Below the pieces are notes generated by a model. It made no database searches. It had not been told where the DNA came from and saw nothing but the letters and a program-made list of their open reading frames with translations. A DNA stretch of 64,000 nt from contig NZ_VRMG01000004.1 in NCBI RefSeq assembly GCF_008040105.1, positions 310,001-374,000 of the forward strand, read 5' to 3'. Each line of letters begins with the position of its first letter. Position 1 is the stretch's first letter. Positions 4,574-64,000 of this stretch are shown piece after piece. Position numbers and translations under genes: made by a program. The DNA comes from Lacisediminihabitans profunda (lineage in GTDB: Bacteria; Actinomycetota; Actinomycetes; Actinomycetales; Microbacteriaceae).

Positions 4574-5134
4574 ATGTCGCAACGGCTTCCCCGCGTGCTC
4601 TCGCGCGTCGACCTCCCCCTCGCGGAACTGACGGCCGCCCGCCTCGACGGGGAGGTCTACGCCGTCGACGAGTGCTTCAGCCCGCTCGACGAGTTCGAGG
4701 CGACCCAACATCGCGCGCTGGCGCTGCTCGCGAGCTTTCCGCGCCGGCTCATCGCCGAGCAGCACACCGCCGCCTGGGTGCTGGGCGCGCAGCCCGCTCC
4801 CCCGCCGGTGCACCAGTTCTGCGTGAGCATCGAGGCGAGGACCCGGCCGACGATCGCGCTGCGCATGTCGGTGCGCGAGGTGGTGATCGACGACGGCGAC
4901 CTGCTGCAGATGGCCGGGCTGGCGGTCACGACCCCGCTGCGCACCGCGGTGGATCTCGCCCGCTGCTCCCCGGTCTTTCGCGACCGGGACCTGCCGCTCG
5001 TGGCCGAGCTGATGCGCATCGGGGGCTTCGGCGTCGAGGACTGCGCCGAACTGCTCAACCGGCGGCGCAATCTGCCGGACAAGCGCCTCGCCCTCGCGCG
5101 GCTGGTCGCCGCGGCGTCGCTTCGGCAAATCTAG
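4574..5134 (+). CDS. AbiEi-like / hypothetical antitoxin-type protein
   Basis: A 186-residue protein resembling the middle part of AbiEi-type proteins common in Microbacteriaceae: RLIAEQHTAAWVLGA, then a beta-rich stretch, then the typical segment GLAVTTPLRTAVDLARCSP. It lacks the N-terminal winged-helix block and the C-terminal DUF559 nuclease part seen in the related protein at 51185-52093. No toxin gene is adjacent. The stop codon overlaps that of the convergent rel gene within a CTAG tetramer. I cannot assign a biochemical function; an orphan antitoxin remnant or a stand-alone DNA-binding regulator are both possible. Confidence 0.6.
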   Translation: MSQRLPRVLSRVDLPLAELTAARLDGEVYAVDECFSPLDEFEATQHRALALLASFPRRLIAEQHTAAWVLGAQPAPPPVHQFCVSIEARTRPTIALRMSVREVVIDDGDLLQMAGLAVTTPLRTAVDLARCSPVFRDRDLPLVAELMRIGGFGVEDCAELLNRRRNLPDKRLALARLVAAASLRQI

Positions 5135-39467: not shown

Positions 39468-40610
39468 GTGAAAATCCTGAGAAGTGAGCGCTATGCGGCC
39501 TTCCTGCTCCTCGGCGCTGCAATTCTCGGAGTGATTCTGGCGAACACCGCCTGGGGACCCGCGCTTCAGAACGCCAAGGACTTTCCCCTCGACATCCCCT
39601 GGCTGGGACTCCACCTCACGGCCGGGGACTGGGTCAAAGACGGATTGCTCGCCGTCTTCTTCTTCATCGCCGCGATCGAACTGCGCCACGAACTCGCGCA
39701 CGGCGAGCTCGACAGCGCACGGAAGGCCCTCGTCCCCACCGTCGCGGCGGTCGGCGGCGTGATCGTGCCGGCCATCATCTTCCTGATCGTGGTGCGCGAC
39801 CCGGCGCTGTCCGTCGGCTGGCCGATTCCCACCGCGACCGACATCGCCTTCGCCCTCGGGGCGCTCGCCCTCGTCGGCCGCGCACTTCCTTCCCGGGTGC
39901 GCGCCCTGTTGCTCGCACTCGCCGTGATCGACGACCTGATCGCGATCATCATCATCGCGGCCTTCTTCACCAGCGACCTGCAGCCAATTCCCCTGCTCGT
40001 GGCCGTTCCGGTCGTGCTGCTCTTCGGCTGGCTGAGCGGCCGGGCGCGCTCCGCACCGATCGTCGCGCTGCTCATCGTGCTCGGGATCACCACATGGGTG
40101 CTCGTGCACCTGTCGGGCATCCACGCGACGATCGCCGGCGTCGCCCTGGGACTCATCATGGCGGGGAAGAGCGCTGGCAAGACCCGTCACGCCCTCGAAC
40201 CGGTGAGCAACGGCTTCATCCTGCCGGTCTTCGCGTTTGCGGCGGCGTTCGTCGCGCTGCCTGCGGTGGGCATCGCCGACCTGAGCCCCGTGTTCTGGGC
40301 GATCGTCATCGCCCTGCCTGTCGGCAAGCTCATCGGCATCACCGGCGGGGCGGTGATCGCCACTGCCATTGCCGGCCGCGGAGGCCCGAAGGGCATCCCG
40401 CTCGGAGACATCGTGGCGGTGGCCGGCCTCGGGGGAATCGGATTTACCGTCTCCCTGCTCATGAACGAACTCGCCTATGCCCACGACCACGAGATCGCCG
40501 TGCAGGGCACCCTGGCGGTGCTGGTCGCCTCGGTGATCGCGGCCGTGATCGGCGTCTCGCTCACGGCGGCGCGCTCCCGCCACTACCGCTCGGGGCGCGC
40601 CAAGGCCTGA
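39468..40610 (+). CDS. nhaA: Na+/H+ antiporter NhaA
   Basis: Twelve-helix sodium/proton antiporter of 380 residues, which extrudes Na+ in exchange for protons. Conserved blocks are FFFIAAIELRHELAHGEL, GWPIPTATDIAFALGALAL (the unwound helix with the first half of the ion site), LLLALAVIDDLIAIIIIA with the essential Asp pair, and GGIGFTVSLLMNELAY. The GTG start at 39468 follows GAGGCCA. The element at 40624-41210 begins 13 bp after the stop codon. Confidence 0.96.
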   Translation: MKILRSERYAAFLLLGAAILGVILANTAWGPALQNAKDFPLDIPWLGLHLTAGDWVKDGLLAVFFFIAAIELRHELAHGELDSARKALVPTVAAVGGVIVPAIIFLIVVRDPALSVGWPIPTATDIAFALGALALVGRALPSRVRALLLALAVIDDLIAIIIIAAFFTSDLQPIPLLVAVPVVLLFGWLSGRARSAPIVALLIVLGITTWVLVHLSGIHATIAGVALGLIMAGKSAGKTRHALEPVSNGFILPVFAFAAAFVALPAVGIADLSPVFWAIVIALPVGKLIGITGGAVIATAIAGRGGPKGIPLGDIVAVAGLGGIGFTVSLLMNELAYAHDHEIAVQGTLAVLVASVIAAVIGVSLTAARSRHYRSGRAKA

Positions 40611-40623
40611 CCCCGTTCGCAAG

Positions 40624-41210
40624 GTGTGCTGCCCAGGCAGGTTGGTTGGGTGTGACGACTCGCTTCAGTCGGTGAACGTGAGCGAGGTCCTCCTGTCCCA
40701 CGCTGATGCTGCTCCGCCGCACGCCGGTCGCCGCGATGCCGGAGGCTGGACCTTCTCGGCCCTCTGGCGTTGCCGCCCGCGTCGGTCGGGCCGTGTTCTG
40801 CAGGACGGGTCCCGGTGGTGTGGGTGCCTACCCCACAGACTCCAGTTATGCAGGACAGGTTGTGCAGGACAGCTCGGGCAGGACAGCTTGTGCAAGACAG
40901 TTTGTGCAGGACACGGCAGGGGTGTGGCGACCGGAAGGGTCCCGGTCTGCAGGACGCTCCCGTCGGTTCTGCACCTGCCGTCCTCGCTGTCCGCCCGAGG
41001 CGTCCTGCACAACCGGTCCTGCCGTCCTGCACCACCCGTCCTGCAGAACTGGAGTCTGGCGGGGCGGGCACCCGTGGACGCCCGAGCCGTCCTGCACAAC
41101 CCGTGCCAGCGACCGGGGAATGCCGCACAGTGGCGGGGACGCAGGCCCCACACCGCGATCGGAGCCGGCCCACCCATCAGCTGGTTAACCAGCGTCCCTG
41201 GGCAATGCAG
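40624..41210. repeat. Large foldback element, copy A
   Basis: A 587-bp non-coding element that fills the gap between convergent nhaA and the ZapE gene. The ends are GTGTGCTGCCCAGG on the left and CCTGGGCA plus six bases on the right. Internally, TGCAGGAC-type motifs on the left arm (for example 40799, 40849, 40863) and GTCCTGCA motifs on the right (for example 41002, 41038) form an imperfect hairpin. Thus 40836-40856 is complementary to 41038-41058 with one mismatch. A 452-bp core is shared with copy B. Left flank CAAG and right flank CTAG could be target duplications. Function unknown. Confidence 0.8.
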
Positions 41211-42245
41211 CTAGATGTGGCCGGCGGTGAGGGCGATGAGTCGTGACGTCGCGCGCAGGTACTTCTTGCGATAGCCGCCGGCCAGCATCTCTTCGGGGAA
41301 GATCTCGTCGAGCGGTGTTCCCGTCGCGATGATGCGCACCTGGGCGTCGTAGAGGCGGTCGACAAAGGCGACGAACCGGAGCGCATCCGTCTGGTTGGCG
41401 AGTTCGTGAACGTCGGTGAGGGCGATCGCGTCTAGTCCATCGACGAGCTTGAAATAGCGGGAAGGGTGCACCGAGGCGAGGTACCGCACCGCATCGTCGA
41501 AACTGTCGACGGTGATCTCGCCCTCCACCGCGGCGATCGCGGCGTCGAGGTCACCCTCGGCCACCGTGGCGGCGTGCCCCTCGAAGTGACGGCGGCGGTA
41601 GTCGAGGCCGTCGATGCGGAGGGTGGTGAAGCGGGCGGCGAGGGCATCGATCTCCCGCAGGAAGTCCTGTGCGGCGAACCGGCCCTCGCCGAGGGCATTC
41701 GGCGGGGTATTCGATGTCGCGGCGATCCTCGATCCGGATGCCACCAGGTCGGACAGTAGCCGCGACATCAGGCGCGTGTCCCCCGGGTCGTCGAGTTCGA
41801 ATTCGTCGATGCAGATGATGGAGGCACCCTTGAGCAGGGCCACCGTGGGCGCGTAGCCGAGCGCCCCCACCAGCGCGGTGTATTCGATGAAGGTCCCAAA
41901 GTATTTGCGTCCGGGCATGAGGTGCCAGAGGGCGGCAAGGAGGTGGGTCTTGCCCACGCCGAAGCCACCGTCGAGGTAGACCCCCGGGAGCGAGGCCGGT
42001 GCGCGGCGACGGGAGAAGAGGCCACCCGATCGTCCGGAATTCGCATGCGCGAAATTGCGGATGGCCGCGACTGCCGCCCCCTGTGACGGAAAGTCGCGGT
42101 CGGGCCGGTAGGAGTCGAGCGTGGCCGACTGGAACTGCCGCGGCGGGACGAGTTGCTCGACGATCTCGGTGCCGCTGAGCGTCGGCCGGCGATCCAGCAG
42201 ACTCTCCGGATTCGACAGGCCGAAGAAATCCTGGTCAGCGCTCAC
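41211..42245 (-). CDS. zapE: ZapE/AFG1-like ATPase
   Basis: AAA-type ATPase of 344 residues. Walker A GGFGVGKT is at 93-100 and Walker B IICIDEF at 143-149; the motif FDTRLMSRLL-like (GDTRLMSRLLSDL) follows. In Escherichia coli ZapE acts on the division ring under stress; mitochondrial AFG1/LACE1 handles respiratory proteins. Actinobacteria usually carry one copy, and the exact role here is inferred. The stop codon lies inside the CTAG flank of foldback element A. The gene diverges from the sulfurtransferase gene. Confidence 0.88.
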   Translation of the reverse strand: MSADQDFFGLSNPESLLDRRPTLSGTEIVEQLVPPRQFQSATLDSYRPDRDFPSQGAAVAAIRNFAHANSGRSGGLFSRRRAPASLPGVYLDGGFGVGKTHLLAALWHLMPGRKYFGTFIEYTALVGALGYAPTVALLKGASIICIDEFELDDPGDTRLMSRLLSDLVASGSRIAATSNTPPNALGEGRFAAQDFLREIDALAARFTTLRIDGLDYRRRHFEGHAATVAEGDLDAAIAAVEGEITVDSFDDAVRYLASVHPSRYFKLVDGLDAIALTDVHELANQTDALRFVAFVDRLYDAQVRIIATGTPLDEIFPEEMLAGGYRKKYLRATSRLIALTAGHI

Positions 42246-45758: not shown

Positions 45759-46355
45759 GTGCCCGAAAAACCCGCAGGACAATCGGTGCCGGCCGTCTTC
45801 ACCGCCGCGCTCCACTCTGTTCGCCGCGCCCGGCTGCGCTCCGAGCTCACCCTCACCGAGATCCCCGCGCCCGGCAATCTCGCGCCGTACAGCATCGCGC
45901 TCGCGGCGGACGTGACGCCAGCCCGCCACGAGGCAGACTCCGACCTCGGCACTGGCCGGTTCATCCTGCTCTACGACCCGAGCGAGCCCGAGGCGTGGGG
46001 CGGCCCCTTCCGCATCGTCTGCTTCGCCCAGGCACCGCTCGAGACCGACATCGGACTCGACCCGTTCCTCGCGGACGTCGCGTGGTCCTGGCTCGTGGAC
46101 GCGCTCGATGCGAGGGGCGCCAAATACATGGCAGCCGCCGGCACCGCCACCAAGATCCTCTCGACCGGCTACGGCGAGCTCGCCAGCCAGGGCGACGGTG
46201 CCCAGATCGAACTCCGGGCCTCCTGGAGCCCACTCGACCACGACATCACCGCACATGTGGAAGGCTGGGGTGAGTTGTTGTGCATGCTGGCGGGCCTCCC
46301 GCCGGCCGTCGAAGGAGTCAGTTTGTTAGCGGCGCGTCGAGCTGCACGTGAGTGA
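45759..46355 (+). CDS. DUF3000 family protein
   Basis: A 198-residue actinobacterial protein starting at GTG: FTAALHSVRRARLRSELTLT, LAPYSIALAADV and the terminal block AHVEGWGELLCMLAGLPPAV are typical of DUF3000. No enzymatic motif is recognised. The gene overlaps the following ribonuclease D gene by 8 bp, the usual arrangement in this order, and diverges from the hydrolase gene. Confidence 0.9.
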   Translation: MPEKPAGQSVPAVFTAALHSVRRARLRSELTLTEIPAPGNLAPYSIALAADVTPARHEADSDLGTGRFILLYDPSEPEAWGGPFRIVCFAQAPLETDIGLDPFLADVAWSWLVDALDARGAKYMAAAGTATKILSTGYGELASQGDGAQIELRASWSPLDHDITAHVEGWGELLCMLAGLPPAVEGVSLLAARRAARE

Positions 46356-47604
46356 CACCGAACACGACCCCACCCCACCGGAGGCCGTGGCGGTCGAACA
46401 GGCAGCCCATGCACTCGTCTCCGCGATCGAATCGCGGGAGGAGTACCTGCGCGCGGTGGAGACGATCGCGGCCGGTCACGGGCCGATCGCCATCGATGCC
46501 GAGCGGGCATCCGGGTTCCGGTACTCGCAGCGCGCGTACCTGATCCAGGTGTTCCGCCGCGGGGCCGGGGTGTTCCTCTTCGACCCGCCGGCCATTGGGG
46601 ACTTCGCCGAGCTCAACGACGTGATCGCCGACGAGGAGTGGGTGCTGCACGCGGCAAGCCAGGACCTCGCCTGCCTGCGCGAGGTGGGACTCGACCCCAC
46701 GCACATCTTCGACACCGAACTCGGTGCACGCCTGGCCGGACTGCCCAGGGTGGGACTCGGCACGGTCGTGGACGAGCTGCTCGGCATCCACCTCGCCAAG
46801 GAGCACTCGGCGGCCGACTGGTCGACGCGGCCGCTCCCCCAGTCCTGGCTCGTGTACGCCGCTCTCGACGTTGAACTTCTCGTCGATCTGCGGGATGCCA
46901 TGGCCGGCCTGCTCGATGAGGCGGGCAAGACCGCGATCGCCGCCCAGGAGTTCGCCGCGGTGCTCACCCGGGAGGCCAAGCCGTCCAAGGGCGAGGGCTG
47001 GCGTCGACTCTCCGGACTGCACACCGTGCGGGGCCCGCGCAACCTCGCCGTCGCCCGGGAACTCTGGGAGGCACGCGACGCGTTCGCCCGGGAGACCGAC
47101 ATCGCCCCCGGACGACTCGTGCCGGACTCGTCGCTGATCGCGGTGGCGAAGGCCATGCCCGAGTCGAAGCAGGCCCTCGCGGCAATGCGGGAATTCAACG
47201 GCCGGGCCAGCCGATCCGAACTGTCCCGCTGGTGGGCGGCCATCGAGGCCGGCCGGATCAGCGAGGACCTCCCCGCGCTACGGGTGCCCGGAGAGACGAT
47301 GCCACCGCCCAGGATCTGGTCGGATCGCAACCCGGAGGCCGACAAGCGACTCAAGACCGCCCGTGCCGCGGTGACCGAGGCGTCGACCGACCTCAGCATC
47401 CCCGTCGAGAACCTCCTCACCCCGGAGCTGCTGCGCCGCCTCGCCTGGGCCCCGCCCTCGCCGCTGGACCTCGCCGCCGTGCAGGAGCGGCTCGTGGACC
47501 TCGGCGCGCGCCCCTGGCAGATTGACGCAATCGCACAGGTAGTTCTCGATGCCTTTGTCGAAGCCAACCAAACTCCGCTCCAGACTGACGAATCGGATTC
47601 GTAG
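46348..47604 (+). CDS. rnd: Ribonuclease D (3'-5' exonuclease with HRDC domains)
   Basis: Protein of 418 residues with an N-terminal DEDD exonuclease domain: IAIDAERASGFRYSQRAYLI supplies the first acidic pair, EWVLHAASQDLACLRE the second block, and LPQSWLVYAALDVELLVDLR the third (YxxxD). Two HRDC domains follow (LWEARDAFARETDIAPGRLV and the later RRLAWAPPSPLDL region). It probably matures stable RNAs. Read-through with DUF3000 is likely. Confidence 0.93.
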   Translation: MSDTEHDPTPPEAVAVEQAAHALVSAIESREEYLRAVETIAAGHGPIAIDAERASGFRYSQRAYLIQVFRRGAGVFLFDPPAIGDFAELNDVIADEEWVLHAASQDLACLREVGLDPTHIFDTELGARLAGLPRVGLGTVVDELLGIHLAKEHSAADWSTRPLPQSWLVYAALDVELLVDLRDAMAGLLDEAGKTAIAAQEFAAVLTREAKPSKGEGWRRLSGLHTVRGPRNLAVARELWEARDAFARETDIAPGRLVPDSSLIAVAKAMPESKQALAAMREFNGRASRSELSRWWAAIEAGRISEDLPALRVPGETMPPPRIWSDRNPEADKRLKTARAAVTEASTDLSIPVENLLTPELLRRLAWAPPSPLDLAAVQERLVDLGARPWQIDAIAQVVLDAFVEANQTPLQTDESDS

Positions 47605-62623: not shown

Positions 62624-62646
62624 TCCGGCGCCTTAGCCGCCGCTAG

Positions 62647-63110
62647 TTTTACTGCCCAGGCAGGCTGAACCTTCTCGGCCCTCTGGCGGTGCCGCCCGCG
62701 TCGGTCGGGCCGTGTTCTGCAGGACGGGCCCCGGAGGCGCGGATGCCTACCCCACAGAATCTGGTTATGCAGGACAGCTTGTGCAGGACACGGTTGGGGT
62801 GTGGCGACCCGAACGGTCCCGGTCTGCAGGACGCTCCCGTCGGTTCTGCACCAATCGTCCTCGCCATCCGCCCGAGCCGTCCTGCACAACCCGTCCTGCC
62901 GTCCTGCACAACCCGTCCTGCCGTCCTGCACAACCCGTCCTGCACAACTGGAGTCTGCGGGGCGGGCACCCGTGGACGCCCGAGCCGTCCCGCACAACTC
63001 GTGCCAGGGGCAAGGGAGTGCCGCACAGCGGCGGGGACAGGCGGGCCCCACACCGCGATCGGAGCCCGCCCACCCATCAGCCGGTTAACCAACGTCCCTG
63101 GGCAGCACAC
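62647..63110. repeat. Large foldback element, copy B
   Basis: A 464-bp element closely related to copy A at 40624-41210 but lacking about 105 bp near the left end. It again lies between convergent genes, here sepH and the phosphatase. Left flank CTAG plus six bases precedes TGCCCAGG; the right end is CCTGGGCAGCACAC followed by CTAG. The right arm contains a tandem 22-bp repeat (62877-62942). Arms 62755-62775 and 62937-62957 pair with four mismatches. No ORF is credible because copies differ by frame-shifting indels. Confidence 0.8.
62877..62942. repeat. Three perfect tandem 22-bp repeats inside element B
   Basis: Three contiguous identical 22-bp units (62877-62898, 62899-62920, 62921-62942), each containing two GTCCTG cores and one CTGCACAAC, form the right arm of the foldback. 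Copy A has related but diverged units in the same place. Confidence 0.85.
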
Positions 63111-64000
63111 CTAGTCCCGAATTGCGAAGGCCCCGAACCGCAACAGCGGAATTGCCGTCTCCTCCGGCGACCATGACCCGTGCTGGCCGACCATGGACCG
63201 GCCATGCTGGGCGACCGGCCGCGAGTCGTAGTAGGCGATGCCCTTGCGGGCGGCGACGATGATGTCCCCGATCCGCGGCACGACCTCCCGGTCGACGCGC
63301 GGCCCGAACCAGCCGGACTCGATCGCCTCGTCGCGGGAGACTATCCACGACCGGCTCCCCTCCGCCGCGCGCCACCGCTCGAGCACGGCCTGACGGTGGC
63401 CGAGGCTCGCGTCCGGTTCGAAGTGCAGTTGCAGCGCCCGAGGCTCACCGGCGACGAAGCGGATGCCGTCCACGAGCCCCGGATCGGTGTCGAACAGGAT
63501 GTGGGAGCTCTGCGGCACGTCGAGCACGCCGTGGTCCGCCGTGAGCACGAGGCCCTCCCGGGCGCCGAGGTCGGCGGCGAAGGCACGCACTGTGGAGTCG
63601 AGCTCCTCGAGCACCGAGGTCCACAGCGGCGACTGCCAGCCGTGCGAGTGCGCGGCCTGGTCGAGCTCGGGAACGTAGACGTAGAGCAGTGCCCGGTCCA
63701 CGGAGTCGAGAACGCGCCTGGCCTCCTCGAAGCGATCCGTCATCGTCGCGCCGCCGCGGTATTCCGCGCCCCGCAGCACCGCCCGGGTGAAACCGGACGA
63801 GCGGTAGCGTTCCGTGCCGATCGCGAACGACCGCACGCCGCGATCCCGAGCCCGTTCGAAAAGGGTGGGCACTCGCTGCCAGGTCTCCGGATCGAGGCGG
63901 TCGTCCCAGCCGCTGAGCTGGTTGACGACGCGGTCGTTCGCCGCGTCGAGCACCGTATAGCCGACGAGCCCGTGAACACCGGGTGGCTCCCCCGTCGTGA
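63111..64000 (-). CDS. Alkaline phosphatase family protein (nucleotide pyrophosphatase-like), partial
   Basis: The gene enters from the right edge; the visible 296 codons are the C-terminal part. It begins TTGEPPGVHGLVGYTVLD, continues with NQLSGWDDRLDPETWQRVP and has a metal-binding set in DRALLYVYVPELDQAAHSHG and LVLTADHGVLDVP typical of type I phosphodiesterase/nucleotide pyrophosphatases. The N-terminal nucleophile region is outside the window. Its stop codon lies in the CTAG right flank of foldback element B. Confidence 0.85.
   Translation of the reverse strand, partial: TTGEPPGVHGLVGYTVLDAANDRVVNQLSGWDDRLDPETWQRVPTLFERARDRGVRSFAIGTERYRSSGFTRAVLRGAEYRGGATMTDRFEEARRVLDSVDRALLYVYVPELDQAAHSHGWQSPLWTSVLEELDSTVRAFAADLGAREGLVLTADHGVLDVPQSSHILFDTDPGLVDGIRFVAGEPRALQLHFEPDASLGHRQAVLERWRAAEGSRSWIVSRDEAIESGWFGPRVDREVVPRIGDIIVAARKGIAYYDSRPVAQHGRSMVGQHGSWSPEETAIPLLRFGAFAIRD

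Follow-up and report, generated by a model that had tools for sequence, protein, structure and literature searches.

IS481-type ends, a captured gene end and a palindromic repeat array in a dispersed foldback element of Lacisediminihabitans profunda

REP and BIME sequences are short palindromes, which lie between genes in alternating orientation. In eukaryotes, Pack-MULEs and gene-capturing Helitrons hold fragments of host genes between transposon ends and have amplified them. For bacteria, one publication describes MITEs and mobile insertion cassettes (MICs) as IS-related elements without an own transposase, which can be activated by the cognate transposase of a related IS (PMC3129680). TIMEs are presented as non-autonomous elements derived from Tn3 that mobilise segments of plasmid DNA (PMC4133298). 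Within the IS481 family, ISArsp12 is listed with the IR TGTACTGACCGGACACGTTG and the DR CCTAGA (PMC6305408), and TnRErm46 is reported to target CTAG with rescue of the stop codon (PMC6794481).

Here, a foldback element (A) of L. profunda is described. It lies between nhaA and zapE within a window of 64,000 nucleotides, which is the whole stretch of DNA that was analysed, and a second copy (B) is present in the same window (Table 1). The element has IS481 ends and lies at CTAG sites, orthologous sites are empty in relatives, and its interior consists of a captured gene end and a repeat array.

Table 1. Positions of elements A and B, their parts and their flanks in the window.
Feature	Positions	Strand	Remarks
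nhaA, Na+/H+ antiporter	39468..40610	+	left neighbour of A; PF06965, 6.8e-99
Left flank GCAAGG of A	40619..40624		expected place of the left target-duplication copy; CTAG absent
IS481-type left end of A	40625..40712	+	TIR, 5' UTR and opening codons of a transposase gene otherwise lost; right limit approximate
Captured 3' end of Amidohydro_3 gene in A	40713..40767	+	internally deleted here; limits approximate, by eye
Captured palindromic repeat array (large hairpin) in A	40768..41141		TGCAGGAC in left arm, GTCCTGCA in right arm; limits approximate
Longest stem of A, left arm	40831..40873	+	86% complementary to 41021-41063
Longest stem of A, right arm	41021..41063	+	pairs with 40831-40873
IS481-type right end of A	41142..41209	+	last codons of the lost transposase and TIR
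Right target copy GCTAGA of A	41210..41215		minus-strand TAG in it is the zapE stop codon
zapE, AFG1-like ATPase	41211..42245	-	right neighbour of A, convergent to nhaA; PF03969, 2.9e-60
Left target copy GCTAGT of B	62642..62647		flank reading
Element B	62648..63109	+	architecture as in A; IS left end mostly missing
Right target copy CCTAGT of B	63110..63115		gives TAG stop to the following minus-strand gene

Ends and copies of the element

The original prediction placed A at 40624-41210 and B at 62647-63110. Both blocks are real, but each of these limits is off by 1 nt, and A occupies 40625-41209. The termini 5' TGTGCTGCCCAGGCAGGTTGG and 3' CCAGCGTCCCTGGGCAATGCA, the TGCAGGAC and GTCCTGCA units in the respective arms and the flanking genes nhaA and zapE were found as predicted. 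The element had further not been recognised as a known MITE, IS, REP or RNA family, and this no longer holds for its outer ends, which belong to the IS481 family of insertion sequences; in this respect only was a known family recognised.

Query positions 3-74 and 523-595 correspond to the two ends of full-length elements of ~1.1 kb, two of which are present in G012, a genome of the same genus, and three in G040. In G040 the element ends are TGTACTGCCCGGGGACGTTGG and CCAACCTGCCTGGGCAGTACA, and an intact frame of 330 aa is present, which reaches 336.5 bits with NF033577 (transpos_IS481, cut-off 224) and displays the rve and LZ_Tnp_IS481 domains; the transposase frames of both full-length G012 elements are interrupted. 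Compared by BLASTN with the full-length IS in L062, the left end of A corresponds to IS nt 1-72 (78%) and 113-141 (86%), and the right end to IS nt 1042-1104 (81%). The right end matches the last transposase codons, and the left end, which is fullest in copy L036, reaches the transposase start. The DDE transposase gene is absent from the element, and its remnant is confined to the parts matching the two IS ends. The exact TIR pattern matched 111 stretches in named genomes; among the 80 matches listed, the host names are ones which we take to be actinobacterial.

The element is short, carries no transposase, occurs in multiple copies and shares its TIRs with an IS, which are the features of a MITE, and the sharing of TIRs with full-length elements places it in the IS481 family. 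Judged by its sequence, A is a non-autonomous IS481-family derivative of the MITE or mobile-insertion-cassette type.

An intact cognate transposase was not found in the 171-contig assembly of L. profunda, where a search at E 1e-20 revealed two interrupted IS481 frames, L221 (G000:C2:1-3200) and L222 (G000:C34:1-1800). Both adjoin CTAG and have a somewhat different TIR, starting TGTAGTTCCCGGGGACGT; the transposase match of L222 starts at the contig end. Furthermore, L285 (G000:C117:71000-73200) is a decayed fragment of the cognate IS, in which 28 bp agree fully with the right end of L002 and adjoin IS nt 112-315 at 75% identity. In the element copy L015 (G000:C65, ~45769-46429), which has CTAGG on both sides, the left end is of the TGTAGTTCCCGGGGACGTTG kind and so belongs to the other IS481 group. 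This hints at a possible hybrid, on which the other IS481 group of the genome could act.

The original prediction was right in that the element is dispersed in repeated copies, bears terminal inverted repeats and can form a large foldback. Instead of only two copies, at least 37 loci were counted in the L. profunda genome (4.02 Mb, 171 contigs). Searching this genome with A gave 148 matches, of which the 32 strongest, apart from A itself (100%), show 71-92% identity. Since 40 of 109 first-look candidates were scored, all copy counts are lower bounds. Among the 40 loci read (L001-L040), three (L037, L039 and L040) are arrays without element ends and 37 are copies or fragments; at the thresholds used, both ends are present in 15 of these, which are 320-691 bp long, and one or both are missing in 22. 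Allowing up to 3 mismatches, the TIR pattern has 31 matches in the genome vs 0 with a reversed control. In the window, TGCAGGACAG with at most 1 mismatch has 16 matches vs 3.6 expected, a number reached by 0 of 100 shuffles, and all 16 lie inside A and B.

Thirteen complete copies are 73-92% identical over shared columns, with a median of 86%. Due to this divergence, transposition has to be deduced from old traces; the family seems to be an old one, which is probably no longer moving. Within Microbacteriaceae, the interior was found at E 1e-8 solely in the L. profunda genome (1 of 398 genomes, 2 candidates scored per genome). The phage collection gave no match to the element, and in the plasmid collection two Arthrobacter records match, both with the IS right end only.

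Target sites, stop codons and empty orthologous sites

CTAG is present at 23 of the 30 ends of the 15 complete copies (left 10/15, right 13/15, both 8/15). The 6-bp target duplication is identical in two of the 15, five of six bases are alike in six more, and overall the duplication is mostly degraded; A itself has no CTAG on the left. Insertion at CTAG with a target duplication agrees with the IS481 family, for which NCTAGN is given (PMC6794481).

A predicted gene ends with the TAG inside the flanking CTAG at 13 of 15 complete and 11 of 22 incomplete copies. The 22 other CTAGs of the window, which do not flank an element, comprise 6 stops, 9 sites inside called genes and 7 intergenic ones. 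Against these, the 13 of 15 yields p 0.0005 in Fisher's test, or p 0.03 with the within-gene CTAGs left out, the genes being called by codon usage and the two stop-codon counts coming from similar, not identical callers. This association is expected here, as both the CTAG targeting and the role of the stop codon are already known from TnRErm46 (PMC6794481).

The genes next to the 15 complete copies are convergent in eight cases, co-directional in five, never divergent, and unclassed in two. For nhaA and zapE, 12 congeners were compared. Both genes are convergent without the element in seven, at a spacing of -4 to 65 bp, and in G002 a single CTAG serves both stop codons. In the remaining congeners, a relative of nhaA lies on the same strand in G011, no nhaA was found in the fetched flank of three, and zapE itself was not found in one. 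A similar arrangement is seen at 5131-5134 of the window, where one CTAG provides both stops of two convergent predicted genes, an unoccupied example of the presumed target.

The captured interior and the palindromic array

The interior of the foldback is foreign to the IS; in it, the 3' end of an amidohydrolase gene of the chromosome is joined to a palindromic array. The candidate donor is locus L220 (G000:C76), which harbors an Amidohydro_3 gene (PF07969, 1.8e-54). In the element, the IS left end is followed by the gene-end homology and the array, and parts of the array are ordered as behind the donor gene. Copy L013 encodes a stretch of 32 aa, of which 26 (81%) are identical to the Amidohydro_3 protein at residues 450-481; at the DNA level, L013 is 86.5% identical to the donor gene over 104 nt (E 2e-32). 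For L024, the identity is 73% over a 148-nt span (E 2e-27), and shorter stretches are present in L033, L036, L002, L005 and L012; the part of the gene end that is kept differs between copies. In A, it was assigned via the alignment of copy L002 to L220, longer stretches being available in L013, L024, L033 and L036.

Two side observations concern this interior. In L024, L035, L036 and L007, repeated 13-bp TAGTTGTGCCGCC-like units, some with CTAG, are located where the captured gene end meets the array. In L013 (1358-1960) a loop contains an expanded short tandem repeat of CCGCTAT units, apparently due to slippage.

The amidohydrolase gene is present in 9 of 12 congeners (E 1e-60), and therefore a transfer from gene to element is the likely direction. 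The reverse, in which the element would have come first and decayed copies of it would have become the array at this gene and the remaining arrays without element ends, is improbable. It would fit that six element-free arrays, including the donor locus, carry the ACTCCAGTT extension or a one-base variant as in the element (a seventh, L219, departs more), and that the core motif was found within 1400 nt behind the orthologous gene in 0 of 11 relatives (9 congeners and 2 others), which makes the array at this place particular to the L. profunda lineage. Nevertheless, the element holds coding sequence of a gene whose orthologues exist in congeners, the two congeners with the palindrome have no TIR string within 300 nt of it, and the donor locus is also devoid of such a string.

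The paired palindrome GTTGTGCAGGAC...GTCCTGCACAAC (exact, spacer 0-30) is found in 3 of 398 Microbacteriaceae genomes, L. profunda, G002 and G009, which represent one genus, and controls gave 0. For TTGTGCAGGACR, 203 occurrences were counted in L. profunda (control 1); the counts are 13 for G002, 10 for G009 and 0-5 for the 76 further genomes searched. GTTGTGCAGGAC and its reverse complement stand in convergent order at 43 of 45 strand switches in the L. profunda loci and at 9 of 9 in those of the two congeners, the p values of which are overstated because the L. profunda loci are related by descent. Of 16 array clusters without element, 4 have convergent, 7 co-directional, 1 divergent and 4 unclassed neighbours; since only 4 of 16 are convergent, a placement of such arrays between convergent genes as a rule was dropped. 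No mover or binder of the palindrome, seen so far in one genus, was found. At G009:C143:5550-9030 (L216), two inverted palindrome arrays surround ~3 kb of genes. This locus was considered as a larger element and dismissed, since on visual inspection two frames between the arrays resemble 5-oxoprolinase subunits.

A structured non-coding RNA family, with its fold under selection, appears slightly less probable still than the reversed direction. The large foldback of the original prediction is confirmed. Folded as DNA, 40624-41211 reaches -176.8 kcal/mol; 100 shuffles average -139.5, and none of them attains this value (z -6.6). As RNA, each of the 15 complete copies folds more stably than its shuffles do on average, whichever strand is taken, with z from -2.3 to -13.9 and only 15 shuffles per copy. 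Furthermore, the copies differ by 2.8% in the TGCAGGAC core, by 8.0% in paired columns and by 15.6% in unpaired non-core array columns (permutation of paired vs unpaired columns, p 0.0008), a comparison that is indicative only, as it uses 13 copies and classes taken from the consensus. However, folding of both strands is expected of any inverted repeat, and the conserved 8-mer fits a sequence signal or homogenisation as well as a fold; constraint on a sequence signal and homogenisation among copies could both cause the low core variation. The covarying stems suggested by the original prediction did not appear. For 13 complete copies, all but L033 and L036, RNAalifold revealed a double change in 5 of 102 predicted pairs and a covariation term of +2.39 kcal/mol, which is unfavourable. 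With so few compensatory changes, there is no support for a conserved RNA fold. In line with the prediction that no known RNA family is involved, 4 tRNAs were the only Rfam matches of the window at the gathering threshold, and on the element one match stayed below it (21 bits vs a gathering score of 100).

Least probable is an extragenic repeat of the REP/BIME type moved by a RAYT (Y1 transposase) instead of an IS derivative, since this would leave the IS481 ends and CTAG sites unexplained and PF01797 (Y1_Tnp) matches in 0 of 20 genomes (L. profunda and 19 relatives; controls match in 5 of 14), even though the array behaves like a REP family, being a short palindrome in convergent order that is also present without the element. 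A REP-like movement of the palindrome alone by another enzyme is possible.

Proposed origin and comparison with known systems

The derivation from IS481 that is preferred here would have started with an IS481 copy that was left with little of its transposase gene and acquired a chromosomal segment in a single event. Through the shared ends, an IS481 transposase supplied in trans could then have spread this hybrid to dozens of loci. Insertions would have survived mainly at CTAG sites in which a gene ends with TAG, since duplication of the target restores the stop there, and the copies would have decayed afterwards. Located behind the stop codon, the hairpin may act on both strands in termination or in the protection of mRNA 3' ends. 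Such a putative two-way 3'-end hairpin is the best guess for an effect on the neighbouring genes; that element-free arrays do not lie specially between convergent genes speaks mildly against a role at 3' ends. Taken together, this account of IS481 ends, CTAG sites, one capture, spread in trans and survival at stop codons, with the 3'-end hairpin as its putative part, is regarded as highly probable.

A further-reaching idea is rather speculative. Here, the mini-transposon, which targets stop codons, would be a vehicle for the GTTGTGCAGGAC array, a ready-made 3'-end signal conserved in sequence and active in both directions. Dozens of genes would have received this signal, and a single capture might in this way have rewired many 3' ends of transcription units in the species.

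The element represents a traceable capture of a gene end by a prokaryotic mini-transposon: a candidate donor locus persists in the genome, and congeners have sites without the element. Furthermore, an insertion which preserves the stop codon and carries a strong two-way hairpin could add a 3'-end element while leaving the gene unbroken. MITEs, MICs and the CTAG targeting of IS481 are already known; the new part is the captured interior. In the literature covered, which does not extend to most subscription papers or to ISfinder, no description was seen of a mini-element from IS481 that contains a host gene end and a repeat array, nor of the palindrome.

Compared to the IS481 insertion sequences ISArsp12 and TnRErm46/ISRe46, the element shares a TIR starting with TGT, the CTAG target and the 6-bp duplication. 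In contrast, it has no transposase gene, measures 320-691 bp and contains a captured gene end together with a palindrome array. With the bacterial MITEs and MICs it has in common that it is IS-related and without an own transposase. However, a MITE is a simple internal deletion, whereas the foldback of the element is made of a gene end and a repeat array, and a MIC carries a whole passenger gene instead of these two parts. The TIMEs differ by Tn3-type ends of 38 bp and a composite structure, whereas here the ends are those of IS481 and the captured DNA lies inside a single element. Like REP and BIME sequences, the captured array is a short intergenic palindrome in alternating orientation; unlike them, it comes without a RAYT match in the genome, and its paired pattern is confined to 3 of 398 genomes of the family, all of one genus. 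The likeness to Pack-type transposons is one of analogy only, since the element is prokaryotic, belongs to another transposase family and contains a single captured segment.
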